DNA from: a virus
Strand: one strand, 5' to 3'
Length of the DNA stretch: 33,839 nucleotides
Virus record (IMG/VR): IMGVR_UViG_3300022752_000222
Coordinates: 1-33,839 of that record
In this document: in pieces, positions 5,190-16,659 of the stretch
Numbering within the stretch: the first letter of the stretch is position 1
How the letters are laid out: each line of letters begins with the position of its first letter
Made by a program: the position numbers and the translations under genes
The notes under the pieces: generated by a model
What the model was told of the DNA's origin: nothing
Databases searched by the model: none
What the model saw: the letters and a program-made list of their open reading frames with translations, nothing else

Positions 5190-5229
5190 CGCCCTCTCAT
5201 ACTGATTAAACGGTCAGATAAGGCTGGCT

Positions 5230-5385
5230 ATGTTTGAACGTCTTGGTGGATTTCTTGATAGTTGCCTTGCAGTTGGGCTGCTGTTGCTTTTTGTATTGCC
5301 AGTAATGGCAATCGGTGCGGTCGTAGTGTTTATTCAGCAGGTTTTTGTTAAGGTTCTTGGAAAAGAAAAACCCCCCGAGGGTTAG
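5230..5385 (+). CDS. Small single-pass membrane protein
   Basis: The protein has 51 residues: a short N-terminus (MFERLGGFLDS), a hydrophobic stretch at about residues 12-34 (CLAVGLLLLFVLPVMAIGAV), and a charged C-terminus (KVLGKEKPPEG). AAGG lies 6 nt upstream. It ends in the loop of the convergent terminator hairpin. A holin-like or membrane-anchor role is possible but cannot be shown. Confidence 0.55.
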   Translation: MFERLGGFLDSCLAVGLLLLFVLPVMAIGAVVVFIQQVFVKVLGKEKPPEG

Positions 5386-5393
5386 TCGGGGGG
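5361..5393 (-). terminator. Terminator of the leftward unit
   Basis: An 8-bp perfect stem, CCCCCCGA / TCGGGGGG, has a 7-nt loop. Read on the minus strand it is followed by TTTTTCTTTT; on the plus strand the following bases are CCTGACTTT. The strong reading is therefore for the minus-strand genes at 5420-6552. Confidence 0.85.
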
Positions 5394-5419
5394 CCTGACT
5401 TTGAAGTAATGCAATTGCC

Positions 5420-5590
5420 TTACTCTTCGTCTTCTACCTCTTCAGCTTCTGCATCACGTGCTTCAACAGCAGCCAGTAGTTTGTTGTACAAATCGCTCAA
5501 ACCGGAAGCAATTTCCTGCTCACCAAGCCACTCAAGCAGCTCATCATATTCAAATTCGGTCAGATCCACGCTTACAAAGATCTCATTCAT
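5420..5590 (-). CDS. Small acidic hypothetical protein
   Basis: A 56-residue minus-strand protein beginning MNEIFVSVDLTEFEYDELLE and ending in an acidic run (AEAEEVEDEE). GAGGTG lies 4-5 nt upstream, and the start is 8 nt past the stop of the phosphoesterase gene, so the two form one leftward operon that ends at the terminator at 5361. Acidic mini-proteins of this kind can be DNA mimics or inhibitors of host proteins, but nothing here proves that. Confidence 0.65.
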   Translation of the reverse strand: MNEIFVSVDLTEFEYDELLEWLGEQEIASGLSDLYNKLLAAVEARDAEAEEVEDEE

Positions 5591-5598
5591 GATTCACC

Positions 5599-6552
5599 TC
5601 AGATTTCAGATCCACGAAAATAGGCCGTCCCATTAACCACTTCACACAACTCTGGCGGAAGCAGTTGACCATCATTATGATAGGTCAAGATTGCAAAACC
5701 GCTACACCACGGAAGCGGATTATCTTCTGTGTAATCAAAGGCTTGACTCTTTGGGTCAGCCAACATGCCTGTAGATATGCCGTATCTACGTCCCCGATAA
5801 TCGCCCCAGGGTCTAACTTCTAACAGATGTGTATGCCCTGTTACAGAGTTAATGCCAGATTTCAAAACATTGTTGTATCCCGAGTGGATGCCTGAATGTT
5901 GCATTCTATGTTTGATCATCGTATTGTTGTTAACCATGACCGACCAAGAGACTGACCACTCCGGAATGTGGTCTGATAGTTTAGTGCCGCTGATGTCGCG
6001 GTATTCAGGAACTACCCCTGCCAACCTTTTATCAAATCTTATATCGTGGTTACCAATGGTCCGATGCAAAATGGTGCCAAGCCCCTTGCAAGCTTTATGA
6101 ATCTGATCCATGTGCCACTGGACGCTTTCCAATTCTTGTTTCAGCGTCGGCTTGGCTTGCCAGCCTTCCGGCCCGTACTTGCTTATCTGACCGCCATCTA
6201 ATATGTCACCATTTGCTATAACGATCTGCGGCTTGATCTTCTTTATAACTTTGATCAAAGCATTGAAAGCAGTGGACGTTTCGTTGGGCATAAAGTGCGC
6301 GTCACTAAAAATCACAACAGATCCCGTAACATCTGCAATAGAACGGATCTTGTTCTCTGAATGCATGATGTGTCGGTTAAAACGCTGGTCATTATGAGCG
6401 TGCAAGCTTATGTTTAGTTTTGATTCGATTAAGCTTCGTCGGTGCATGACCGTTCGTTCAGTCAGGCCGAGTTTCCGAGACACAAGGGTTGCAGAACCTA
6501 GCTCATTCCACGCTGCGATAAAGTCCTCATCAGTGACTATTTGCTTCGGCAT
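5599..6552 (-). CDS. Metallophosphoesterase with N-terminal HTH-like segment
   Basis: The protein has 317 residues. Calcineurin-like phosphoesterase motifs occur in order: FSDAHF (D84, H86), NGDILDG (D116, D119), GNHD (N168, H169), a conserved His in IKHRM, and TGHTH (H240, H242), the full two-metal site. The first 50 residues (AAWNELGSATLVSRKLGL, then TERTV) look like a helix-turn-helix. Such phage enzymes may act as nucleases or phosphodiesterases on nucleic acids; the substrate is not shown. It is divergent from the gene at 6623 and has its own promoter at 6582-6609. The fold is firm. Confidence 0.9.
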   Translation of the reverse strand: MPKQIVTDEDFIAAWNELGSATLVSRKLGLTERTVMHRRSLIESKLNISLHAHNDQRFNRHIMHSENKIRSIADVTGSVVIFSDAHFMPNETSTAFNALIKVIKKIKPQIVIANGDILDGGQISKYGPEGWQAKPTLKQELESVQWHMDQIHKACKGLGTILHRTIGNHDIRFDKRLAGVVPEYRDISGTKLSDHIPEWSVSWSVMVNNNTMIKHRMQHSGIHSGYNNVLKSGINSVTGHTHLLEVRPWGDYRGRRYGISTGMLADPKSQAFDYTEDNPLPWCSGFAILTYHNDGQLLPPELCEVVNGTAYFRGSEI

Positions 6553-6581
6553 GACCGCTCCAACATTTGTAGAGACACGCG

Positions 6582-6609
6582 CTTATAACACACATATTTA
6601 ACAAGTCAA
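6582..6609 (-). promoter_or_regulatory. Sigma70-type promoter for the leftward unit
   Basis: On the minus strand TTGACT (6609-6604) and TATAAG (6587-6582) are separated by 16 nt and lie just upstream of the phosphoesterase start at 6552. Confidence 0.75.
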
Positions 6610-6622
6610 GGACATACATATT

Positions 6623-6955
6623 ATGGCAATGAGTGCAGCACAGTTACAAAAACAAGCTCGTATCAACCGAGGTGAAGCGTGTCTTAAGTACATGCAGGGT
6701 CGGGCCACACCGATCACGCTCAAAGAGCTGGCAGACAAGCTGAAGATGACCCCACGCTCAATCAAAAACTCACTTGACCCGCTGCTCGATGAAGGCAAGA
6801 TCACACGTAAGAGGATTCAACGACAATCAGCAATCTCAAAGAAAATAGGGGCGGCGTATGCCTATAGCGCTGTGGACTTGAAACCTAAACCTGAAAAGAT
6901 AGACAGAATTAAGTTTAAGTTCCATGATCCGTTTAACATGGGCCTGAGGGCCTGA
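6623..6955 (+). CDS. Winged-helix-like DNA-binding protein
   Basis: The protein has 110 residues. The segment ITLKELADKLKMTPRSIKNS, followed by LDPLLDEGKITRKRIQ, is a typical helix-turn-helix plus wing layout. The C-terminal half is basic (KPKPEKIDRIKFKFHDPF). It is divergent from the phosphoesterase gene and is followed by a terminator. It probably acts as a regulator; the operator is unknown. The ATG at 6623 has AAGGA about 11 nt upstream; an internal ATG at 6629 is possible. Confidence 0.7.
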   Translation: MAMSAAQLQKQARINRGEACLKYMQGRATPITLKELADKLKMTPRSIKNSLDPLLDEGKITRKRIQRQSAISKKIGAAYAYSAVDLKPKPEKIDRIKFKFHDPFNMGLRA

Positions 6956-6983
6956 GGGGGCAGTAGGATACAAGGAAGGTGCA

Positions 6984-7006
6984 AAAGGGCCTCTAAGGCC
7001 CTTTTT
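6984..7006 (+). terminator. Rho-independent terminator
   Basis: AAAGGGCC, loop TCTAA, GGCCC then TTTTT. It lies between the HTH gene and the gene at 7029. Confidence 0.85.
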
Positions 7007-7028
7007 AACGCGTTTAAAGGGGGTTGTG

Positions 7029-7265
7029 ATGGAATGGAATGAGGCAATGCAGCTGAGTCCAGAAGTGGCAGCGATGCTGAATGTAGGAGAGGTGATCCAG
7101 GTGGTCTATGTCCACCTCGCCAATAACAAGAAACTGGTCTTCCTCGGGCCACCGGTCTCTGAGGAAGAACTGGAAGAGATCCGGGAGGTGGTCTTTGGGG
7201 AAAAGGTGAGCTGCGTGCTGCTTAGAGCCGTTAGCGAACGGCACAGGAGACTGGCAGTGCATTGA
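7029..7265 (+). CDS. Hypothetical acidic protein
   Basis: The protein has 78 residues and begins MEWNEAMQLSPEVAAMLNVG. The pattern of beta strands (VIQVVYVHLANNKKLVFL) followed by an acidic helix (EEELEEIREVVFG) suggests a compact alpha/beta fold. AAAGGGGG lies 5 nt upstream of the ATG. Terminators lie on both sides, so it is a single-gene unit or is read through. No family is recognised. Confidence 0.6.
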   Translation: MEWNEAMQLSPEVAAMLNVGEVIQVVYVHLANNKKLVFLGPPVSEEELEEIREVVFGEKVSCVLLRAVSERHRRLAVH

Positions 7266-7292
7266 GGCAAGAGGCTAACTCTCGCTTTTTAG

Positions 7293-7322
7293 GCCCCGTG
7301 GAGAAGTTCACGGGGCTTTTTT
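7293..7322 (+). terminator. Rho-independent terminator
   Basis: An 8-bp stem, GCCCCGTG / CACGGGGC, has an 8-nt loop and is followed by TTTTTT. It closes the early rightward genes before the non-coding region. Confidence 0.9.
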
Positions 7323-7602
7323 CATGGTTCAAGGGGGGTTTTTCAAGGCTCAAGGACCAAGGATCACGGCCCGGGGATTACGGAGGAGGGCGAACGGTGG
7401 AAAAAGAAGGATGAGTGGTCAATAGACATACTTTTGGGGCGTAATAGAAGTATGTACTTAAGGGGCGGGGAAAAGCAGGAAGTTCACTTTAAAAAAGAGG
7501 GGGATGAGGGGAGGGCAAAAAAGCTTACTTTGAAAGGCCTATTAGGTAAACTTCCTACGTTTGAAATTTTTTTTTTTCAAAACTTAAAAAGTAGTGTAAT
7601 AG

Positions 7603-7903
7603 ACGTAATGCCGTAAGAAGTACCGTGGTTATTGGTCTCCTGGATTACGTCTATTTTTTCATTACGGTAATGGGTATTGCATTAGTGTATCTATAAGAGT
7701 AAGATAAACGAACATTACGTTAAACGTTTACCTTACGTCGTTTATAGATATACGTAATGTGTAGTGTCGTACTGGGAAGCCTTTATTTACAGGGTGTTTA
7801 GCAACATTACGTTATATGATATTACTTTTGACTGAAAAAAAAAAATGAAAAATGAAAAAATGAAAAGTTTACTAGACTAAAGAAAAATGGGATGGACGTA
7901 ATG
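7603..7903. repeat. ACGTAATG octamer array
   Basis: Exact ACGTAATG occurs at 7603-7610, 7752-7759 and 7896-7903 on the plus strand, and at 7713-7720 and 7805-7812 on the minus strand. Near copies are at 7643-7650 (GATTACGT) and in the palindrome CATTACGGTAATG (7660-7672). Four of the five exact copies extend to ACGTAATGT. Such iteron-like clusters often bind an initiator or repressor. Confidence 0.7.
7688..7750. repeat. Large imperfect inverted repeat
   Basis: Left arm TATCTATAA plus GTAAGATAAACG (7688-7710) mirrors right arm CGTTTACCTTAC plus TTATAGATA (7725-7750). The spacer contains one octamer, and the palindrome TAAACGTTTA (7721-7730) overlaps the right arm. It may form a cruciform or be a dyad operator. 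Confidence 0.65.
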
Positions 7904-7938
7904 TGTTGGAGTGAACGGCTAGAAAGAGAGGATAAACG

Positions 7939-8199
7939 GTGAGTAAAGCGAAGGATGAAGAGATTCGGTTGCCGGGGATCACGCCTCGGGATTGGGGATT
8001 GGGCAGAAGAGCGACTTCTGGGAGGGCAAGATATCCCTTTAAGAAGATGCTTGTAGGGGATTTTTTTGTTGTTTACTCACGGACCGAGGCCCACGGGGTA
8101 CGATCCGCGCTGCAATCGTTTTACAGTCGGCATGCGGGAAGGAAGTTTTGGGTTAGACAACGCGAAGACGGAGAGTGGGTATGCAGAAGGATCATGTAG
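7939..8199 (+). CDS. Small basic phage protein, GTG start
   Basis: The protein has 86 residues. The core, RYPFKKMLVGDFFVVYSR, then GRKFWVRQREDGEWVCRR, has the F-x-x-M-x-V-G-D-x-F and G-R-K-F-x-V-R layout seen in short phage proteins of unknown function. AGAGAGG lies 7 nt before GTG at 7939. It overlaps the small terminase gene by 19 nt, which suggests coupling. It may bind nucleic acid given its charge; that is a guess. Confidence 0.6.
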   Translation: MSKAKDEEIRLPGITPRDWGLGRRATSGRARYPFKKMLVGDFFVVYSRTEAHGVRSALQSFYSRHAGRKFWVRQREDGEWVCRRIM

Positions 8200-9035
8200 A
8201 GGGTGGGGTTTCGGGTGTTGGGGTTTCGGGTGTTGGGGTTTCGGGGGTTGGGGTTTCGGGTGTTGATTCGGTTGGGATTGATTCGGGGGAGGTTGCGCCG
8301 CCGTTAGGGATTGCGAAGCAGCAGCCCTTGCTTGACCAGATTCCTGCGATGCGGCCCGAGGTCGTTGAATCACGGATCACGACGCAGATGCCGGAGAAGA
8401 TCAAGAAAAAGGTCTTGACTAAGCAAGAGTGGACCTTTGTAAAAGAGTTTGTGACCGGCGACGGTGAAGTGACGCTAAAGGAGGCGGCACGACGCGCGGG
8501 GTATAAAGAGACTAACCTTGAGTATTGGGGCAGGAGACTTACCGATCCGCACAAGTCGCCTCATATTGTGGCCGCGATCCAGGAGCTTAGAAAAGAGCTT
8601 GCGGTCAAACACGGCACGACCTTTGAAAGGCATATGAAGGACCTTCAAAGGATCCGAGACGCGGCGTTGCAGGCAGGGGCATACTCAGCTGCCGTCGCGG
8701 CTGAATATCGGCGTGGGCAGGCTCTAGGGACCATTTACGTGGAGCGTAAGGAGATTCGGGTTGGCACGATCGACTCGATGTCGAAAGAAGAGGTTTTGAA
8801 AAAGCTTGAAGAGCTACATAACCTGTACGGGCAGGAGGCTAAGACGGTTGATGTTCAAGCAGAATGGATCCAGGAGATGACTGATGCGGAAAAAGTTAGA
8901 AAAGGACTTGTACAGCGCACTTCGTTTACAGCTATCCCAGGAGTCTTGCGCCGGATGGCTAAGGATCGAAGCCAAGCAACCGTTGGGGATGCCGGATCTA
9001 CTGATCATGGAGAGGGGCAAGATAGTCCTGGTTGA
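8181..9035 (+). CDS. terS: Terminase small subunit
   Basis: The protein has 284 residues and recognises DNA to start packaging, working with the large subunit at 13226. The segment LTKQEWTFVKEFVTGDGEVT, followed by LKEAARRAGYKETNLEYWG, is the N-terminal HTH of small terminases, followed by a helical oligomerisation region (residues about 130-230). Residues 9-28 are a GVSGV repeat encoded by four 15-bp units. The ATG at 8181 has GGAG 7 nt upstream. The last 50 residues overlap the nuclease gene out of frame and look unstructured, so the original stop may have been lost. It lies about 4 kb from terL, with a foreign-looking cassette between. Confidence 0.75.
   Translation: MQKDHVEGGVSGVGVSGVGVSGVGVSGVDSVGIDSGEVAPPLGIAKQQPLLDQIPAMRPEVVESRITTQMPEKIKKKVLTKQEWTFVKEFVTGDGEVTLKEAARRAGYKETNLEYWGRRLTDPHKSPHIVAAIQELRKELAVKHGTTFERHMKDLQRIRDAALQAGAYSAAVAAEYRRGQALGTIYVERKEIRVGTIDSMSKEEVLKKLEELHNLYGQEAKTVDVQAEWIQEMTDAEKVRKGLVQRTSFTAIPGVLRRMAKDRSQATVGDAGSTDHGEGQDSPG
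8206..8265 (+). repeat. Four 15-bp G-rich tandem repeats in terS
   Basis: The unit GGGTTTCGGGTGTTG is repeated four times, the third with one change. It encodes GVSGV. The plus strand has regularly spaced runs of three or four G with 4-nt loops, the classic G-quadruplex pattern. Confidence 0.9.
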
Positions 9036-9303
9036 ATTGAAGGTTGTACGGGCAGGGGTAAAGGTGAGGCTTTCGCCCCATCAAGTGGCTTTTGCTGATA
9101 GATCGGCGCGGTTTGGGGTTCCTGCTTATTTGCTTGTCCAACACTGGCCCAAGGAGGTTTTTAGAGCGTCGGATAGTGTTGTGTATGCGTATCAAGCAGG
9201 GCAGGTTGTTGAAGTGGCTCAAAAAGGCCTATCGGTCAAGGCCTGGATGCATTGGGCGTTGAAGGATGCTAAGGGGTTGCATCAATTCCTGGAAAGTGTA
9301 TGA
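8884..9303 (+). CDS. PD-(D/E)XK (VRR-NUC-like) nuclease
   Basis: The protein has 139 residues. GMPDLLIMERGKIVLVELKV holds the P-D and E-x-K catalytic pair of the PD-(D/E)XK superfamily, followed by LSPHQVAFADRSARFGVPAY, the Q-x-x-x-x-x-R-x-x-G-x-x pattern of VRR-NUC and resolvase-like phage enzymes. It probably cuts branched or replicating DNA, perhaps before packaging. AGGAGA lies 6 nt upstream of the ATG. It starts 152 nt inside terS in another frame. The fold call is good; the exact substrate is unknown. Confidence 0.8.
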   Translation: MRKKLEKDLYSALRLQLSQESCAGWLRIEAKQPLGMPDLLIMERGKIVLVELKVVRAGVKVRLSPHQVAFADRSARFGVPAYLLVQHWPKEVFRASDSVVYAYQAGQVVEVAQKGLSVKAWMHWALKDAKGLHQFLESV

Positions 9304-9337
9304 TTAAACCTTCGCTAATCAGAAAGGAGAGAGAGCG

Positions 9338-9712
9338 ATGAACACAAAAGACTTAAAGGGCGTAGCTTTGGACTGGGCGGTAGCTAAATGTTTGGGCTAC
9401 GATCAGTGCTTTAATCATGGTACGAGTATTCGGATACCTTTCTCAAAATGGCCCTATACGGTTGGCTTTTCACCGACGTTGGACTGGGGGCTTTCAGGAA
9501 AGATAATCGAAGAGGAAAGAATCGAATTAGAGCATGATGGCTTTGAGTGGTGGGCTAGGATCAAATCGGATGACGAGTACTCTGGGCCTACGCTTCTGAT
9601 TGCAGCGATGCGTTGTTTTGTGGGTTCAAAACTCGGTGATGAAGTTTCTTTGCCCGAGGACATTGAAGTATCTGTCAACCTAGAAAGGAGAAAGAGTGAT
9701 GAATCAACTTGA
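9338..9712 (+). CDS. NinX-like protein (DUF2591)
   Basis: The protein has 124 residues and matches the DUF2591 / lambda-family NinX pattern: KDLKGVALDWAVAKCLGY at the start, FSPTLDWGLSGKIIEEERI in the middle, and GPTLLIAAMRCFVGSKLGDE near the end. The family is common in phage accessory regions and its function is unknown. The start follows an AGAAAGGAGAGAGAGCG block, and its end overlaps the next tiny gene. Confidence 0.9.
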   Translation: MNTKDLKGVALDWAVAKCLGYDQCFNHGTSIRIPFSKWPYTVGFSPTLDWGLSGKIIEEERIELEHDGFEWWARIKSDDEYSGPTLLIAAMRCFVGSKLGDEVSLPEDIEVSVNLERRKSDEST

Positions 9713-9866: not shown

Positions 9867-10057
9867 GATTATTTGAAGTAGACTTTAAACGCATTATGTA
9901 CGTTTCGACCTACGTGAAAGCTGAGTCTAGGGCCGTGGCTGAAGAAAAAGCTTGGAAAGACATTAAAAAAAGGTATCCCGCATCTATCGACCATAGTGTT
10001 GATGAGGAATGGTCCTTGACTGGTGTTTTTGAAGCCCCTGAGGACTACGAGCCATGA
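9863..10057 (+). CDS. Small hypothetical protein
   Basis: The protein has 64 residues: MRLFEVDFKRIMYVSTYVKA, then a helix (VAEEKAWKDIKKRYP) and a strand (WSLTGVFEAPEDYEP). The alternating pattern fits a compact beta-alpha-beta fold like many small phage proteins that begin with a strand of this type. AGAAAGGAG lies upstream and both ends overlap neighbours by four bases. Function is unknown. Confidence 0.65.
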   Translation: MRLFEVDFKRIMYVSTYVKAESRAVAEEKAWKDIKKRYPASIDHSVDEEWSLTGVFEAPEDYEP

Positions 10058-10146
10058 GCAAATGGGACCTCATCAAACAATTGATACGTAATTTTGCGAT
10101 CATGAGCATATTGCGGGCCCTGGCTGGGGACCGTAAAAAACGCTAG
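10054..10146 (+). CDS. Tiny basic/hydrophobic peptide (30 residues)
   Basis: ATG overlaps the previous stop (ATGA). The peptide MSKWDLIKQLIRNFAIMSIL plus RALAGDRKKR is an amphipathic to hydrophobic helix with a basic tail. It ends just before the promoter at 10147. It could be a membrane-active peptide. Being this short, it may also be a spurious frame. Confidence 0.4.
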   Translation: MSKWDLIKQLIRNFAIMSILRALAGDRKKR

Positions 10147-10174
10147 TTGCAAAGTTTATTTTTATGTGTATACT
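10147..10174 (+). promoter_or_regulatory. Promoter P1 of the GC-rich cassette
   Basis: TTGCAA (10147-10152), a 16-nt spacer, then TATACT (10169-10174), with the context TGTATACTTTT shared with the promoter at 10645. It drives the repeat-protein gene at 10220. Confidence 0.75.
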
Positions 10175-10219
10175 TTTCAGCAACTGATCGCCGATCAGCT
10201 CATACAGGAGAAAGCAAAA

Positions 10220-10591
10220 ATGGATCAATCCGAGATGTTGTCATTAGTTGGCGGGCTTTACGATAAGCTTGTTTCGGACGTTGCCGACAAAGTACTGGCG
10301 AAGCTTGCGCAGCAACAAGAAAGCAAGCCAGCATTCGATCCGGCAGCGCTCGCTGGCGAGCTTGACTATCGGAGGCTTGCCGATGCCCTGGCGGGCCAGC
10401 TGGACTATGCCGAAATCGCGGGCCAGCTGGACTATTCCGAGCTCAGCGGCGAAATCGATTATGGCTCGCTTTATGGTGAAATTGACTTATGCGACCTTGC
10501 GAGCGAAATCGATTCGGATTCGATCGCTTCAGCGCTCGACCTAAGCGAGAAAATCCGCGAAGAAATCCGCATGATGCTGCGCAGTTTATAA
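10220..10591 (+). CDS. Nonapeptide-repeat protein
   Basis: The protein has 123 residues. A helical N-terminal part (residues 1-35) is followed by repeats of nine residues with the pattern [AS]-G-[EQ]-[LI]-D-Y-x-x-[LI]: one at 45-53, then six in a row from 58 to 111, with the last ones degenerate. The C-terminus is a charged helix (EKIREEIRMMLRSL). AGGAG lies 9 nt upstream. It has its own promoter and its own UUCG terminator, so it is a self-contained unit. No family is recognised; a scaffold or coiled assembly is possible. Confidence 0.7.
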   Translation: MDQSEMLSLVGGLYDKLVSDVADKVLAKLAQQQESKPAFDPAALAGELDYRRLADALAGQLDYAEIAGQLDYSELSGEIDYGSLYGEIDLCDLASEIDSDSIASALDLSEKIREEIRMMLRSL

Positions 10592-10614
10592 GGCGACTTG
10601 CTCGCTCGTTGCCT

Positions 10615-10640
10615 GGGCCCTTCGGGGCCCTTTTTGTTTT
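10615..10640 (+). terminator. UUCG-tetraloop terminator
   Basis: GGGCCC, TTCG, GGGCCC followed by TTTTTGTTTT. The UUCG loop makes an unusually stable hairpin. It directly precedes the promoter at 10645. Confidence 0.9.
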
Positions 10641-10644
10641 TTAC

Positions 10645-10672
10645 TTGCAAAATAGAATTTTAAATGTATACT
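10645..10672 (+). promoter_or_regulatory. Promoter P2 of the GC-rich cassette
   Basis: TTGCAA (10645-10650), a 16-nt spacer, then TATACT (10667-10672), the same arrangement as at 10147. It drives the gene at 10720. Confidence 0.8.
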
Positions 10673-10719
10673 TTTAATCCTGGCGACGTGCCAGGGATAC
10701 AGCGAGAAAGGATTCGACC

Positions 10720-11409
10720 ATGTTAAAGACCGTAGCAAAATCAGCGAATCGGAAAACCGGGCCGATCGCCGTTACGTATAGGGCGGGCGTGCATGAAACG
10801 TATGCAACGTGCCCTAGCACTTGCGCCCTACACCCAAAAGGCGAAAAGGGCGGCGACTTAATCGACGGCGATTATCTCGACGCCCTGCGCGAGGCCGTGC
10901 CAGCTGGGGGTATCGCCTGGACCTATTCGCATTTCGACGCCTCACTACTGCCACAATGGGCCGAGGGCGAAACTGTTATCAATGCATCATGCGATACAGT
11001 CGGCGAGGCCTTGCGCGCTGTAAAACTTGGGAGGCCCGCTGTATATGCTGCGCCAGCTGATACGGCGACCAGCTGGCCCGCGAAGCATGGAGGCGTGCGC
11101 TTTGTGCGTTGCCCCGCCGAGCTCGCCGATAATTTTACTTGCGACAATTGCGGCGGCGACCGCCCATTATGCGCCAGGGCCGAGCGCGATTTCGTCGTTG
11201 TTTTCGTCGCCCATGGGCCCAGCAAGGCGAAAGTCGGCAAGGGCGGCGGATGTTATGCGGCGGGCGGTCCGACTGCTATACAGTGGCATGGCACGCGAAC
11301 GAAGGGCGCAGCGAATGACGCCCAGGCCCTGCGCGCCTTCGCGGCCTCGTTGCCCTGGGGCTCAAAATTGCGCCACCATGTCGCAGGCGACTTAGGCCTT
11401 GCAAGTTAA
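10720..11409 (+). CDS. Cysteine-rich phage protein of unknown function
   Basis: The protein has 229 residues. The N-terminus reads KTGPIAVTYRAGVHETYATC and continues PSTC, with C31 and C35. Later come C91 (NASCDTVGEA), C131 (VRCPAEL), then C141, C144 and C151 (CDNCGGDRPLC). The pattern suggests metal or Fe-S binding and recalls a family found in other phages that I cannot name with certainty. The ATG follows GAGAAAGGATTCGACC, a leader nearly identical to that of the DUF932 gene. It is GC-rich, unlike the genes on either side of the cassette. Confidence 0.6.
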   Translation: MLKTVAKSANRKTGPIAVTYRAGVHETYATCPSTCALHPKGEKGGDLIDGDYLDALREAVPAGGIAWTYSHFDASLLPQWAEGETVINASCDTVGEALRAVKLGRPAVYAAPADTATSWPAKHGGVRFVRCPAELADNFTCDNCGGDRPLCARAERDFVVVFVAHGPSKAKVGKGGGCYAAGGPTAIQWHGTRTKGAANDAQALRAFAASLPWGSKLRHHVAGDLGLAS

Positions 11410-11427
11410 AAAGTTTTTAGTTATATT
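11399..11427 (+). promoter_or_regulatory. Promoter P3 of the GC-rich cassette
   Basis: TTGCAA (11399-11404), overlapping the end of the upstream gene, a 17-nt spacer and TATATT (11422-11427). It is the third TTGCAA-type promoter in the cassette and lies upstream of the DUF932 gene. Confidence 0.6.
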
Positions 11428-11434
11428 GACAACT

Positions 11435-11454
11435 AGCGCGCAATTTCGCGCGCT
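11435..11454 (+). repeat. GC hairpin in the DUF932 leader
   Basis: AGCGCGC, loop AATTTC, GCGCGCT: a perfect 7-bp stem with no T run after it. It sits between promoter P3 and the start at 11487, so it could be an operator or an mRNA-stabilising 5' hairpin. Confidence 0.7.
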
Positions 11455-11486
11455 GAAAACCTGAGAAAGTAAGAAAGGATTCGAAC

Positions 11487-12581
11487 ATGAGTACACTCAC
11501 ACAAGCTAGTAAACAATGGGCAACAAGGCCGGACGAGGAACGCTTCGTTTCGCTTATCGACATGCTGGCTCATGCCGAGGCGCAGCGGGCTATATCAAAG
11601 GCGCGCGTCATGAGCTCGCGCGATTTATCCGTTCGCCCGATTGATGACCAGGGCCTAGTTATCGAATCGCGCGAAGGCGGGCAAGCGATGATTTCGCATC
11701 ATGCTTTCGGCCAGCTGGCGGGCCTTGCTGGCGCGCCTGGGGGATATCTTCGCTCGTTGCCTGCGCCCCTCGCTGCTGACTGCGTCAATTATGGGCTGCA
11801 AGTCGAGCGCGAGGCCGAAGATATCGGCGTTCTATTAGTAGGCGGGGGAGCTCACGGTCCGCGCACGCTGCGCGCTGCGACTGGTCCAAAGTACGGCCGG
11901 GTATGGAATTCGCAAGTTATCAAAGCGCTCGTTGATCGCTTCGGCGACGGGGTTTCGGGAGATTTTCGCGTCCCTGGCGTATGGGGGCGCCCCCTTGATC
12001 AAGTCACTAAAAAGGATACAACGCTGTACTGTGGCGACCGCGACATGTTCGTTTTCCTGGCCGACGAGGAAAACCGTATTGAAATGCCCGATCGCCGCGA
12101 CGGGAAAACCGGCGCGCTTGCTCGAGGGTTTTTCGTGAGTAACAGCGAAGTCGGCGCGGGCGCGCTCAAAGTAAAAACTTTCCTTTTCGATTACGTATGC
12201 GCTAACCGCATCGTATGGGGCGCGCTTGAGCTCGACGAGCTCAGCATTCGACATACGGCAGCTGCGCCCGATCGCTTCGTTGAGCAAGTCGCGCCCGCCT
12301 TGCTGGCTTATTCGCAGGCCAGCGCCGACAACGTTTCGACCGTACTTCGGACCGCCCAGCGAAGCAAGGTCGATAAAGTCGCCGACTTTCTCGCTAAGCG
12401 CTTCGGGCCCAGGATAGGCGAGCGAATTGAACACGCTCATATGCTTGACGAAGGCCGACCGATTGAAACCTTGTGGGACGTTGTAACCGGCGCGACTGCG
12501 TACGCGCGCTCGATACCCTGGACCGCCGACCGTGTCGAATTCGAAAGTAAGGCGGGCGAGATCCTCGACCTTGTCGCCTGA
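11487..12581 (+). CDS. DUF932 phage/plasmid protein
   Basis: The protein has 364 residues. The layout matches the phage/plasmid DUF932 family (TIGR03299-like): ARVMSSRDLSVRPID, AMISHHAFGQLAGLAGAPGG, RAATGPKYGRVWNSQVIKAL, RGFFVSNSEVGAGALKVKTF and YVCANRIVWGA. The family is usual on plasmids and phages and its role is unknown. AGAAAGGATTCGAAC precedes the ATG. It is the last large gene of the GC-rich cassette and looks acquired, since its codon use differs from the late genes. Confidence 0.88.
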   Translation: MSTLTQASKQWATRPDEERFVSLIDMLAHAEAQRAISKARVMSSRDLSVRPIDDQGLVIESREGGQAMISHHAFGQLAGLAGAPGGYLRSLPAPLAADCVNYGLQVEREAEDIGVLLVGGGAHGPRTLRAATGPKYGRVWNSQVIKALVDRFGDGVSGDFRVPGVWGRPLDQVTKKDTTLYCGDRDMFVFLADEENRIEMPDRRDGKTGALARGFFVSNSEVGAGALKVKTFLFDYVCANRIVWGALELDELSIRHTAAAPDRFVEQVAPALLAYSQASADNVSTVLRTAQRSKVDKVADFLAKRFGPRIGERIEHAHMLDEGRPIETLWDVVTGATAYARSIPWTADRVEFESKAGEILDLVA

Positions 12582-12583
12582 TC

Positions 12584-12661
12584 ATGCACGGCCTGATCGA
12601 CTGGTTGATCGCGATCGCCTTCGGCGTCGCCCTGGGCGCAGCGCTCGCCCTCAGCTGGTAA
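12584..12661 (+). CDS. Tiny membrane peptide (25 residues)
   Basis: The peptide MHGLIDWLIAIAFGVALGAA plus LALSW is almost entirely hydrophobic and would span a membrane once. It starts 2 nt after the DUF932 stop, with no clear ribosome-binding site, and ends before the terminator. It may be a real mini-protein or a chance frame in GC-rich DNA. Confidence 0.35.
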   Translation: MHGLIDWLIAIAFGVALGAALALSW

Positions 12662-12682
12662 CGCCGACCAGCTGGCCCAGCT

Positions 12683-12710
12683 GGCCGCCTTCGGGCGGCC
12701 TTTTTGTTTT
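12683..12710 (+). terminator. UUCG-tetraloop terminator of the cassette
   Basis: GGCCGCC, TTCG, GGCGGCC followed by TTTTTGTTTT. Same design as the one at 10615. Confidence 0.9.
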
Positions 12711-12907
12711 CCTGGGCGTATTTCACGCTGGCCCTTTAATAAGCGATTGAATCGCTTGGCTATTCGCGAGCTCGCGCCAGGGTTTTCTTGGCCCGTGGGC
12801 CTCGGGCCTTTTACTGGTAACCGTTGCCCGCGCAGCTGGTCCGACCAGCTGGCGCAGCTGGCCCTGGGCCGTCGGCCTGGGGGCTCGACCAGGGGCTCGA
12901 CCAGCTG

Positions 12908-12958
12908 GCGCACTAATCGCCGATTCGCCCAGGCGCACTAATTCGCTCGCGCACTAAT
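12908..12958 (+). repeat. Three direct repeats of GCGCACTAAT
   Basis: Exact copies at 12908-12917, 12933-12942 and 12949-12958 in the non-coding GC-rich stretch. Confidence 0.8.
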
Positions 12959-13018
12959 CGACCAGGGCCCGCTGGCCCTGGGCCCCGGGCCCCGTCCCCC
13001 GGGGCGAGTCCCGGTATC

Positions 13019-13054
13019 GATTCTAGAGCGTAGAGCGCTCTAGGTTCTAGAATC
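13019..13054. repeat. Inverted repeat with inner palindrome
   Basis: GATTCTAGA (13019-13027) mirrors TCTAGAATC (13046-13054) and encloses the perfect palindrome TAGAGCGCTCTA (13031-13042). TAGAGCG is also directly repeated at 13024 and 13031. It may be an operator or a recombination site. Confidence 0.7.
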
Positions 13055-13121
13055 CGGCACAAATGGCCCGACGTCGTAGCGGACGCCGACCTTGGCCCGG
13101 TTTCGCAGAATTAATGAGCCC

Positions 13122-13150
13122 TCGAAACAAAACCAAGATAAGCGTATACT
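13122..13150 (+). promoter_or_regulatory. Possible promoter upstream of terL
   Basis: TCGAAA (13122-13127), a 17-nt spacer and TATACT (13145-13150). The CGTATACTTTTCAC context resembles the cassette promoters, but the -35 box is weak. Confidence 0.5.
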
Positions 13151-13225
13151 TTTCACTTCCAGGAAACCCACCCCCTTGTTCCTAGAACCGATTTCCCTGA
13201 AAATTTTTTGCAAATTCCAAAACCT

Positions 13226-14695
13226 ATGGCCTTACCCCCGGACCTTGAAGCAGAACGCTTGAAGCTTGAGCTACGGCTCAGGATCCTTGAGGCTCGGGAC
13301 AAGGCCAAGGCTTCTTTCATAGATTTCGCCCGTTATGTTTGGCCCGAGGCCATCTTCAGTGCGCATCATTACAAGATGGCGAATGCTTTTGACCGGATTG
13401 TCAGGGGCGAGTTAAAGCGGTTGATTATCAACATGGCGCCTCGACACACCAAATCGGAATTTGCTAGCTATCTTTTGCCTGCGTTTGCCATGGGCCATGA
13501 GCCTCGGTCCAAGATTATTCAAGCCACACATAATGGCGAGTTAGCGGTCCGTTTTGGCCGTAAGGTCAGGAACCTGATGGATCAGGAGACGTATAAGGAG
13601 TTGTTTCCGGCGGTGAGTTTGAAGCCTGATTCAAAGGCAGCTGGCCGGTGGGATACGAATGGTGGCGGGGAATACTATGCTGTAGGGGTTGGTGGTGCAA
13701 TGACGGGGCGGGGTGCGGATCTTTTGATTATTGACGATCCGCATTCGGAGCAGGATGCTTTGTCAGAGTTGTCACTTGACAACGCCTGGGAGTGGTACAC
13801 ATCGGGGCCGAGGTCGCGATTGCAGCCCGGAGGGGCGGTTGTGGTGGTGATGACCCGTTGGGGGATGAAGGATCTGACGGCAAGGTTAATTAAATCGCAG
13901 GCAGAGCCGAAGTCGGATCAGTGGGAGATTTTGGAGTTCCCGGCAATACTGAATGAGAATACCCCTCAAGAGAAGCCCCTTTGGCCAAGTTATTGGAGCC
14001 TTGATGAGTTACAAAAGGTCAGGGCCACCTTGTCGGTGCAGAAGTGGCAGTCGATGTATCAGCAGCAGCCCACCAATGATGAGGGGGCGATTTTAAAGCG
14101 TGAATGGTGGAGGATTTGGGAAAATGATTACACCCCCCAAGTTGAATATATCATCCAGAGTTATGACACCGCGTACAGCAAAAAAGAGACAGCTGACTTT
14201 TCAGCAATCACCACCTGGGGTGTATTCCGTCCCAGCGCGGACGACGGACCTGCCATTATTCTCCTCGATGTTAAAAAAGGCCGTTGGGACTTTCCGGAGT
14301 TAAAGCGGGTTGCCAAGGCGCAGTACGATCATTGGCGACCGGATAATGTGTTGATCGAGGGCAAAGCAACGGGGATTACGTTGCAGCAGGAGTTGCGGCG
14401 TGTGGGGATTCCTGTGACCATGTACAACCCAGGCGGCAGGAAAGCGGGCCAGGATAAGATATCCAGGGCCAATGCGGTAGCGCCTGTGTTTGAGTCTGGG
14501 ATGGTCTGGGCCCCGGAGACGAAGTGGGCTGAAGAGTTGATTGAGGAGTGTGCGGCGTTTCCCAAGGGAGACTCGGACGATCTTGTGGATAGCACGGTGC
14601 AAGCGATCATGCGTTTTCGTGCGGGGAATTTTGTGGCCTTGGATGATGACGAGGCTGATGAGCCAAGCAACGTGCTTGAGTTTGAATATTACTAA
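13226..14695 (+). CDS. terL: Terminase large subunit
   Basis: The protein has 489 residues and is the packaging motor ATPase and nuclease. The ATPase half has a Walker A-like APRHTKSE (residues 71-78), Walker B LLIIDDP (166-172) and a coupling motif VVVVMTRW (205-212). The nuclease half has SYDTAYS (D314), IEGKATG (E378) and DSDDLVDS (D451, D452, D455), the RNase H-like acidic cluster. The ATG at 13226 gives a typical N-terminus (MALPPDLEAERLK); a TTG at 13208 is the alternative, and neither has a good Shine-Dalgarno. It starts the late rightward block and is separated from terS by about 4 kb. Confidence 0.93.
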   Translation: MALPPDLEAERLKLELRLRILEARDKAKASFIDFARYVWPEAIFSAHHYKMANAFDRIVRGELKRLIINMAPRHTKSEFASYLLPAFAMGHEPRSKIIQATHNGELAVRFGRKVRNLMDQETYKELFPAVSLKPDSKAAGRWDTNGGGEYYAVGVGGAMTGRGADLLIIDDPHSEQDALSELSLDNAWEWYTSGPRSRLQPGGAVVVVMTRWGMKDLTARLIKSQAEPKSDQWEILEFPAILNENTPQEKPLWPSYWSLDELQKVRATLSVQKWQSMYQQQPTNDEGAILKREWWRIWENDYTPQVEYIIQSYDTAYSKKETADFSAITTWGVFRPSADDGPAIILLDVKKGRWDFPELKRVAKAQYDHWRPDNVLIEGKATGITLQQELRRVGIPVTMYNPGGRKAGQDKISRANAVAPVFESGMVWAPETKWAEELIEECAAFPKGDSDDLVDSTVQAIMRFRAGNFVALDDDEADEPSNVLEFEYY

Positions 14696-14742
14696 GGCCA
14701 TAATAGGGCTGTCCAACACGCCTTGGCCGGGAGCCTAAAAGC

Positions 14743-16632
14743 ATGAACAGCAATTTCTACGTGGATCCGATAACGGGAGAGCGTCGTTATAACACGTTGC
14801 AGCGTTATGCAGAGGGAGGGGCGGTAGGTAATGAGGGCAGTGATGCGCGATCCATGTTGCAAAATCTACAGCGTGTAAGACCTTTGAACATGCAAGATGG
14901 TGGAGAGATATTTGGGCCACAGCAGCCTTTTGGCGGTATAGCGTCTAGTGACATAAGGGCAAGGGAGAATGATCCTTTTAACTCGGCAGCGTTTACTAAT
15001 GCGTCCTCGCAGGTTAATTCAATTTTTGGAAACAGTTACAGAGATGAGGTGGAAGCGTTAAAAAGTGCAGGAGTAAAAGACCCAGGGGCTGCTGCGATAG
15101 GCTATAGGACAGGGATAGACCCGTATGTTTCAGCTGCAAGGTATAGCGAGTTAGAAGCTTTTGATCGAGCAAATCCTGGAATGTTAAACAGGGTAATGGG
15201 TATTAATGAGGTTGATAGCCCAGGTGTTACGTGGAGAAACATGGTTTTGCAGTCTCCAACTGGGGTAACTCCAGCTTCAGCGGCTCCAGCACTTCAAGGA
15301 CAAGCAGTTCCATCAGCTCCAGCTTCAGCGGCTCCAGCTTCAGCGGCTCCATCAGCTCCTGCATCAACCGCTGCGGGCATGTTAAGTGCCTTGCCAACAA
15401 CTTCGGCAGGCGCAGCGTTGCAATATGAGCACCCTTATGTAAACCCGATTACGGGGGAACGCAAAACGGTCACAGGCGGAAGCACTGGCCAAGGCGCTCC
15501 CGCTGGGTTTATTAATGCTTTAAACCCGAATGTGTATGGAGGCCAGCAGTCTGACCTTGCCGTGGGCCATGGATTTTATGCCAAGGGCGATACGGTAAAT
15601 TTATCCCCGTTGCTTAATAATAGTGGCCCGGGCCAAGGTCCCGTTCGCGTGGACCAAAATATTGGCAACGTGCAGCTGCCTGGAAAGTCCACGGACTATA
15701 CCTATACGCAGGCAGGAAATACCCTACAAGTCAGGGATAAAGGGGGCAATGTGGTAAGTCAGATTGCTGTTCAGGAGGACGTGAACGGTACACAGCTTAA
15801 GTTTGCCGATGGCACGGTGGGCGCAATCCCCGTGAAGAAGGACGGCTCTTGGGAGATCCAGTTAGGTGGAAAATCTGCCGGGGGATACACAGGTATTCCC
15901 ACTGTCACAGGCGGCACCGGCAATGACACTGTCACGGTAACACCACTGCCCGCCACACCCGTCCCGCCCTATAACGAAGGTGTAGCGGATCCGACAATTC
16001 CCATGCCGCCGATTGATCCACGGACCGTGACACCTGTGCCTGTCCCCCCGATCAACCAGGAGTTTTTAACTTCTCCTGCACGTCAGTGGGATCCGGTGAC
16101 GCAGTCGTTTAAGTACGGCTCTCCTACATTACTGTCCCCGGGCACTGGACCTGGAGGAGCGGGCGGGGCTGGGGCGGCGAGCTGGACCCCACCCGGAGTG
16201 ACTTTAAGACAGCCTTCATTGTTGCAAGTGGCTACAAGCGATCAAGCAACAAGGCCTTCTTATGATGCGAAATCGGGGATTTATACCATCCCAACGTATT
16301 CTGAAAGCGAACGAAACGCCATAAATCGTGAGCAATTGCTTGGCTCCGTAAGCTCGGCGCTTGTTGGTAAGAAGTACACTACCCCGCAGTACTATAAGCT
16401 ACTGAGCATGGCAAGGTCGGGTGCCTTTGGTACGCCGGGAACCCCTGAATTTATTTTAAAGCTACAGGCCGCACTTGCCTCCCTTGCCGCCGCCCAAGCT
16501 GCTAACAATACCGTAACGGGCGGAACAGGCAACGACACTACGACCGGCGGAACAGGCAACGACACTACGACCGGCGGAACAGGCAACGACACTACGACCG
16601 GCGGAACAGGCAACGACACCGTAACGGGTTGA
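14743..16632 (+). CDS. Long low-complexity virion-type protein
   Basis: The protein has 629 residues. The start is YVDPITGERRYNTLQRYAEG, and residues about 180-230 are Ala/Ser/Pro-rich with APASAAPSAP-type repeats. The phrase YVNPITGERKTVTGG near residue 230 repeats the N-terminal motif. Residues about 590-629 are four GGTGNDTTT-like nonapeptides, and TGGTGNDTVTVTP also occurs near residue 390. GGGAG lies 8 nt upstream of the ATG. Its place between terL and the portal suggests a virion or ejected protein. No enzyme motif is seen. Confidence 0.65.
   Translation: MNSNFYVDPITGERRYNTLQRYAEGGAVGNEGSDARSMLQNLQRVRPLNMQDGGEIFGPQQPFGGIASSDIRARENDPFNSAAFTNASSQVNSIFGNSYRDEVEALKSAGVKDPGAAAIGYRTGIDPYVSAARYSELEAFDRANPGMLNRVMGINEVDSPGVTWRNMVLQSPTGVTPASAAPALQGQAVPSAPASAAPASAAPSAPASTAAGMLSALPTTSAGAALQYEHPYVNPITGERKTVTGGSTGQGAPAGFINALNPNVYGGQQSDLAVGHGFYAKGDTVNLSPLLNNSGPGQGPVRVDQNIGNVQLPGKSTDYTYTQAGNTLQVRDKGGNVVSQIAVQEDVNGTQLKFADGTVGAIPVKKDGSWEIQLGGKSAGGYTGIPTVTGGTGNDTVTVTPLPATPVPPYNEGVADPTIPMPPIDPRTVTPVPVPPINQEFLTSPARQWDPVTQSFKYGSPTLLSPGTGPGGAGGAGAASWTPPGVTLRQPSLLQVATSDQATRPSYDAKSGIYTIPTYSESERNAINREQLLGSVSSALVGKKYTTPQYYKLLSMARSGAFGTPGTPEFILKLQAALASLAAAQAANNTVTGGTGNDTTTGGTGNDTTTGGTGNDTTTGGTGNDTVTG
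16519..16626 (+). repeat. Four 27-bp tandem repeats at the end of the 14743 gene
   Basis: Unit GGCGGAACAGGCAACGACAC plus TACGACC, at 16519, 16546, 16573 and 16600, with the last copy altered at its 3' end. The stop at 16630 falls in what looks like a degenerate fifth unit. Confidence 0.9.
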
Positions 16633-16659
16633 ACAGGAGGTACCGACGGGTGGTGATTA

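Follow-up and report, generated by a model that had tools for sequence, protein, structure and literature searches.

The window analysed here is a 33.8-kb phage contig (33,839 nt, IMG/VR record IMGVR_UViG_3300022752_000222). From left to right it encodes a DNA polymerase A fragment, small early-type ORFs, the small terminase subunit (terS, 8175-9035), a VRR-NUC-like ORF, a NinX-like ORF, small ORFs, the gene block that is the subject of this report, terL (starting at 13208), a portal-type ORF and capsid genes. The portal-type ORF 3' of terL takes its name from its counterpart in phage DSL-LC04.

The original prediction placed three genes at 10147-12710, encoding a nonapeptide-repeat, a Cys-rich and a DUF932 protein, and these are borne out by the ORFs and their family matches (all on the plus strand). 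The first, rep9 (10220..10591), encodes an acidic protein of 123 aa (pI 4.05) built on the 9-aa repeat xGxIDYxxL; its relatives share a conserved N-terminus and have a variable acidic repeat tail. The second (10720..11409) encodes a DUF7227 protein of 229 aa (PF23872, E 3e-31, 109.1 bits against a gathering cut-off of 27). All 38 of its 38 aligned members match this profile, and cysteines 31, 35, 131, 141, 144, 151 and 178 are invariant. The third (11487..12581) encodes a DUF932-like protein of 364 aa of the phrog_1362 type (E 4e-42), for which the PF06067 match is borderline (23.1 bits against a gathering cut-off of 23, over 80 residues). A profile comparison of this window-type DUF932 with the TIGR03299 subfamily was not significant, leaving the two types unlinked.

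The block also encodes a 25-aa membrane peptide, MHGLIDWLIAIAFGVALGAALALSW (12584..12661, plus strand), which is new here, as it is absent from the ORF list and was overlooked in the original prediction. The peptide is hydrophobic and membrane-helix-like, and is kept within the related loci L006-L012 (related loci carry the prefix L; it is conserved in L006-L008 and L010-L012, relatives with the same cassette). It keeps its 3'-terminal place in the cassette even where another gene intervenes. This is the case in L006, where a DUF6884 gene (7202-7672) with the same hairpin-AUACAG-GAAAG leader lies between DUF932 and the peptide.

AlphaFold2 models of the DUF932 and DUF7227 proteins (mean pLDDT 77 each) gave no significant PDB match. 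The best hits, PebS for DUF932 (VIA Z 6.2) and a PLP-dependent decarboxylase for DUF7227 (VIA Z 3.5), were not trusted, and a PDB sequence search returned nothing significant. In a check for single-strand annealing proteins (Rad52/RecT/Erf), Rad52 appeared among the Foldseek rows only non-significantly (E above 1). A radical-SAM identity of DUF7227, hinted at by its cysteines and by weak barrel matches, receives no support from Pfam. PADLOC found no match for the three block proteins, and no known anti-defence family is among their Pfam or NCBIfam matches. No mention of DUF7227 was found in the literature searched; DUF932 is mentioned there, but not in any title or abstract found.

Each of the three genes is preceded by a putative promoter on the plus strand, as originally predicted. 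P1 (TTGCAA-16-TATACT, 10147..10174) was located by motif search and is conserved in L006; its counterpart in L007, L133 and L147 is TTGCAA-17-TACACT. P2 (TTGCAA-16-TATACT, 10645..10672) is likewise indicated by motif search and by conservation in relatives. P3 (TTGCAA-17-TATATT, 11399..11427) is conserved in L006, L007 and L010-L012, and its -35 box overlaps the end of the DUF7227 gene. The window contains three copies of the motif TTGCAAN16-17TATAYT (10147, 10645 and 11399), always at block genes, where shuffled sequences lead one to expect 0.02; promoter-like sites in general are not more frequent in the window than in shuffles. The block promoters are kept in relatives, including those with permuted gene orders. 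A P4-like box lies ahead of terL (TCGAAA-17-TATACT, 13122..13150, plus strand) and shares GTATACTTTT, of which a fourth copy starts at 13144, 5' of terL. Two predicted intrinsic terminators with UUCG loops, both of which fold well, are found on the same strand: GGGCCC-UUCG-GGGCCC-U5 directly after rep9 (10615..10630) and GGCCGCC-UUCG-GGCGGCC-U5 (12683..12700), the latter common to DUF7227, DUF932 and the 25-aa peptide. Such hairpins had been proposed to bound the block; both exist, but the first is internal and the left side has none.

Each of the three -10 boxes is followed by a short stem-loop and then by a ribosome site (leaders on the plus strand). The rep9 leader (10184..10214) comprises the hairpin CTGATC-GCC-GATCAG, AUACAG at 10202 and GGAGAAAG; the DUF7227 leader (10679..10713) comprises the hairpin CCTGGC-GACGT-GCCAGG, AUACAG at 10697 and AGAAAGGA. 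In the DUF932 leader (11435..11486), the hairpin AGCGCGC-AATTTC-GCGCGCT is followed by AGAAAGGA and lacks AUACAG. Exact copies of AGAAAGGATTCGAMC at 10705 and 11472 confirm the predicted leader common to two of the genes. The stems vary on both sides: CTGATC/GATCAG of rep9 is CCAATC/GATTGG in relatives, and GCGCGC/GCGCGC of DUF932 is GCGCAG/CTGCGC in L007. The ribosome site in AGAAAGGA fits UCCUUUCU, the 16S tail of alpha- and betaproteobacteria, and this match is a hint at the host.

In a search anchored on DUF7227, nearly all of the 80 loci have this gene after terS, with terL farther on where the contig extends that far. The same holds for phage DSL-LC04 (OR003939), assigned to the proposed 'Dishuiviridae' with Pseudomonas as predicted host (PMC10611076). 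DSL-LC04 resembles the window in its order terS-VRR-...-DUF7227-DUF932-GC-rich gap-terL (DUF7227 68% and TerL 76% identical), but its DUF932 is of the TIGR03299 type, rep9 was not detected and the window-specific repeats are absent. The DUF7227-anchored synteny gave the impression of an ordinary conserved block, which was overturned by a search anchored on terL. In the 33 TerL relatives whose contigs extend 4.5 kb or more upstream, DUF7227 is present in 20 and some DUF932 in 19, and neither was detected in 12. In many relatives without DUF7227 or DUF932, about 1.5 kb separates terS from terL (as in L152, L160, L183 and L188), and many loci with TerL at 73-77% identity have this arrangement and no cassette. 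Relatives with TerL at 85% or more mostly carry DUF7227 (12 of 13).

L119 and L128, with TerL 98% identical, match the window in both flanks (89% over 5215-9343 and 94% over 12966-14704). In L119, the sole part of 10138-12965 that aligns is 10705-11411, at 66% DNA identity (DUF7227); the block of L119 and L128 contains a TIGR03299-type DUF932, and rep9 was not detected. L110 has the same block as the window (91%), and L142 (TerL 92%) has neither DUF7227 nor DUF932. The order is permuted to rep9-like, DUF932, DUF7227 in L133, L136, L140 and L147, and the same order with a TIGR03299-type DUF932 is found in L167 and L168. These comparisons indicate that the block has been swapped horizontally at exactly this place. 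Since relatives lack the block, carry the other DUF932 subfamily or have a permuted order, the interval between terS-VRR and terL appears to be an accessory-gene slot in this phage clade. DUF7227 and DUF932 recur in it, and are thus favoured guests and not a one-off insertion.

The alignments place the exchanged unit at about 10147-12965. Its left border is a conserved 30-aa ORF, MSKWDLIKQLIRNFAIMSILRALAGDRKKR (10054..10146, plus strand), which matches at 80-86% in L119, L109 and L124, with the match ending at 10137. The left similarity edge is the end of this ORF, where the originally predicted block begins. The right similarity edge (12966-12984 in the same three loci) is the start of a conserved noncoding element (12966..13105, unstranded). 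In this element, 27 nt at 13079-13105, GCGGACGCCGACCTTGGCCCGGTTTCG, about 100 bp 5' of terL, are identical in all 7 aligned relatives and occur exactly in 23 IMG/VR contigs. These precise borders and the conserved element are new here, the latter having been overlooked earlier. GCGGACGCCGACCTTGGCCCGGTTTCG is a candidate packaging site or origin and resembles lambda cosN; none of the 23 contigs ends there, which lends no support to a cos site at this position, though the contigs may derive from replicating DNA. The right part of the exchanged unit (12701..12965, unstranded) is GC-rich noncoding DNA with the short repeats GCGCACTAATCG and CCAGCTGG. GC-rich short repeats are present here in each relative examined and differ by lineage. 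Enrichment of CCAGCTGG was considered as a functional site and rejected; the repeat is missing from L007 and L010-L012 and is therefore lineage-specific.

We found that a leader architecture is common to unrelated genes of the slot, which is also new here: a variable hairpin of 5-8 bp, AUACAG and a GAAAG ribosome site. AUACAG stands between hairpin and GAAAG in two window leaders and in the leaders of DUF6884 and of unknown genes in relatives. Hairpin leaders were scored by a descriptor and by shuffles, as MAFFT gave no structure-based alignment, and leaders were counted as separate clusters if more than 8 of their 32 upstream positions differed. Of the 30 AUACAG/GAAAG leader clusters, 20 have a hairpin of 5 bp or more, with 17 distinct stems among them; the 500 shuffles averaged 2.2 and never exceeded 7. 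The other 10 clusters have no perfect hairpin. Hairpins of at least 6 bp occur at 21 of 36 block-gene starts (1.0 expected), compared with none at the 18 starts examined for the VRR gene adjoining terS. The density of the AUACAG/GAAAG motif is 0.121/kb in the slot versus 0.011/kb outside, about 10-fold. The motif is not exclusive to the slot, since it is also found at genes elsewhere (window position 2826, where the small early-type ORFs lie, and L001 positions 1163 and 2313).

The composition of the block had been described as differing from both sides and foreign-looking. The difference itself holds for overall GC, which is 0.579 in the exchanged unit versus 0.496 in the remainder of the window, with no other non-overlapping stretch of the same size above 0.536. 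It does not extend to GC3, which is 0.60-0.63 in the block genes and 0.61 in terL, with several other genes matching too. The codon choice of the block is thus not strongly foreign, and that part of the description is weak. Much of the GC excess is due to amino-acid composition and GC-rich noncoding DNA (to about 13.06 kb). In the terL relatives, DNA 5' of terL is about 3 GC points above terL in cassette loci and about 4 below it in loci without a cassette.

The genomic associations of the two families offer hints of function, indirect ones in the case of plasmid maintenance regions. Relatives of the window-type DUF932 were found on 305 plasmids, 183 of them typed as conjugative, mostly of alphaproteobacteria, and the neighbours on inspected plasmids include ssb, radC pairs, ParB-like, H-NS-like and toxin-antitoxin genes. 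The leading regions of plasmids can carry anti-defence islands, whose accessory genes enter the cell early and have ssb and toxin-antitoxin genes nearby (PMC11541004). The DUF932 relatives adjoining ssb and radC on conjugative plasmids recall this setting, although conjugation is at work there and a phage here, and the main text of that paper contains neither DUF nor RadC. The TIGR03299-type DUF932 lies immediately 5' of a lambda-exonuclease/YqaJ gene in 4 of 9 inspected plasmids (L212, L216, L225 and L228), an arrangement like that of annealase and lambda-exonuclease operons, and it is possibly an unrecognised annealing-protein partner. Unlike in those operons, no exonuclease adjoins the window DUF932, there being just a weak VRR-NUC-like ORF some 2 kb 5' of it, and neither fold nor sequence comparison matched the protein to known annealases. 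Relatives of DUF7227 occur in 175 phage records, mostly of Pseudomonas phages. PAK_P1 has the gene amid its small ORFs, and cyanophage S-SRP01 has it in the early-type region, flanked by maturase and RNA polymerase genes. These contexts make it conceivable, at somewhat less than even chances, that the block products aid early DNA establishment or counter-defence; counter-defence itself is a possible role.

Taken together, the block is likely to be an exchangeable cassette of apparently self-expressing units with a putative role in early help to DNA. The cassette would move by recombination in its conserved flanks, which are the ORF at 10054-10146 (left) and the noncoding element starting at 12966 (right). 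Its three genes would form compact transcription units, each with a sigma-70-like promoter, a hairpin leader, an AGAAAG(G) ribosome site and an ORF, with AUACAG after the hairpin in two of the three and predicted termination after rep9 and after the DUF932/peptide end. Host RNA polymerase could transcribe a gene anywhere in the slot, before phage regulators exist, and because each main gene has its own promoter and a similar leader, a new gene could work at once. The leader hairpin probably shields the 5' end or leaves the ribosome site accessible. The products would give early help to incoming DNA, through establishment or counter-defence: DUF932 would process DNA, DUF7227 would be an early protein, rich in Cys and possibly binding metal, and rep9 would be an acidic binding protein. 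It is a more doubtful proposal that the gene-independent leader (host-type promoter, free-sequence hairpin, AUACAG, GAAAG) is what lets unrelated anti-host or DNA-establishment genes swap into one slot and work at once; were it true, DUF932 and DUF7227 would be new families of early counter-defence or DNA processing. The interval would mark a place of accessory-gene trading in a widespread, uncultured group of freshwater phages. Hairpin, AUACAG and GAAAG would provide a simple sequence signature for finding such genes, and the two unknown protein families, one of them on hundreds of plasmids, are candidates for tests of early host interaction or DNA establishment.

Three other explanations were weighed. 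The block could be a vertically inherited, immobile operon, its GC bump reflecting protein composition only, as the position of DUF7227 between terS and terL in most DUF7227-query loci, its near-constant presence in the closest relatives and a GC3 like that of terL would suggest. This is highly improbable, as near-identical phages differ in the block (L119 and L142 contradict it) and other relatives have permuted orders, the other DUF932 subfamily or no block. For the noncoding DNA to be the functional heart of the region, as a packaging site or origin, with the genes as passengers beside a recombination-prone site, is also unlikely. The invariant 27 nt and the lineage-specific GC-rich repeats in each relative examined argue for it; none of the 23 contigs terminates at the element, where the ends of cut virion DNA might lie, and gene-specific promoters and leaders are left unexplained.

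The remaining explanation is a moron in the strict sense, with host-benefit genes expressed from a resident prophage. Phage morons are accessory genes that bring along a promoter and a terminator. Like them, the block is inserted between two core genes that are adjacent in relatives, is variably present at a fixed place and, judged by sequence, has its own promoters and a terminator; its total GC differs from that of its neighbours, but its GC3 equals that of terL. Against the strict form, no integrase was seen in the window (ORF list and family scans), and close DUF7227 homologues in 84,980 genomes occur only in a few MAG contigs and in no isolate, which makes this explanation improbable. The slot also departs from known morons in holding several genes, with recurrent families, a common leader and allele exchange. 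The moron-like cassette of the original prediction is thus upheld as a unit swapped at this place (L119, L142 and the permuted orders), while its recurrent families identify it as the content of an accessory slot. Comparison of relatives for presence of the block did not reveal conservation with matching composition in all of them, L119 and L142 being different.

Several features outside the block were also recorded. The window yielded no tRNA in a tRNA search and a single sub-threshold chance match in an Rfam search. The DNA polymerase A ORF (21-1664) has a long non-polymerase stretch ahead of its polymerase domain and is overlapped by a 270-aa ORF (301-1113), an arrangement that resembles an intein or an inserted endonuclease. 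The start of the terS ORF contains four copies of a 15-bp tandem repeat (8204-8265), which give a G/V-rich N-terminus. Tandem repeats of 27 bp at the end of a 629-aa ORF (16510-16637) encode GGTGND repeats with a weak RTX repeat match. In L011, an insertion of about 1 kb (about 5420-6480) lies within terL, seen as a blast gap between window positions 13425 and 13468. In L143-L147, the terL match begins only at residue 76, with an insertion of about 1 kb as in L011; in all of these loci the insertion is probably an intron or intein.
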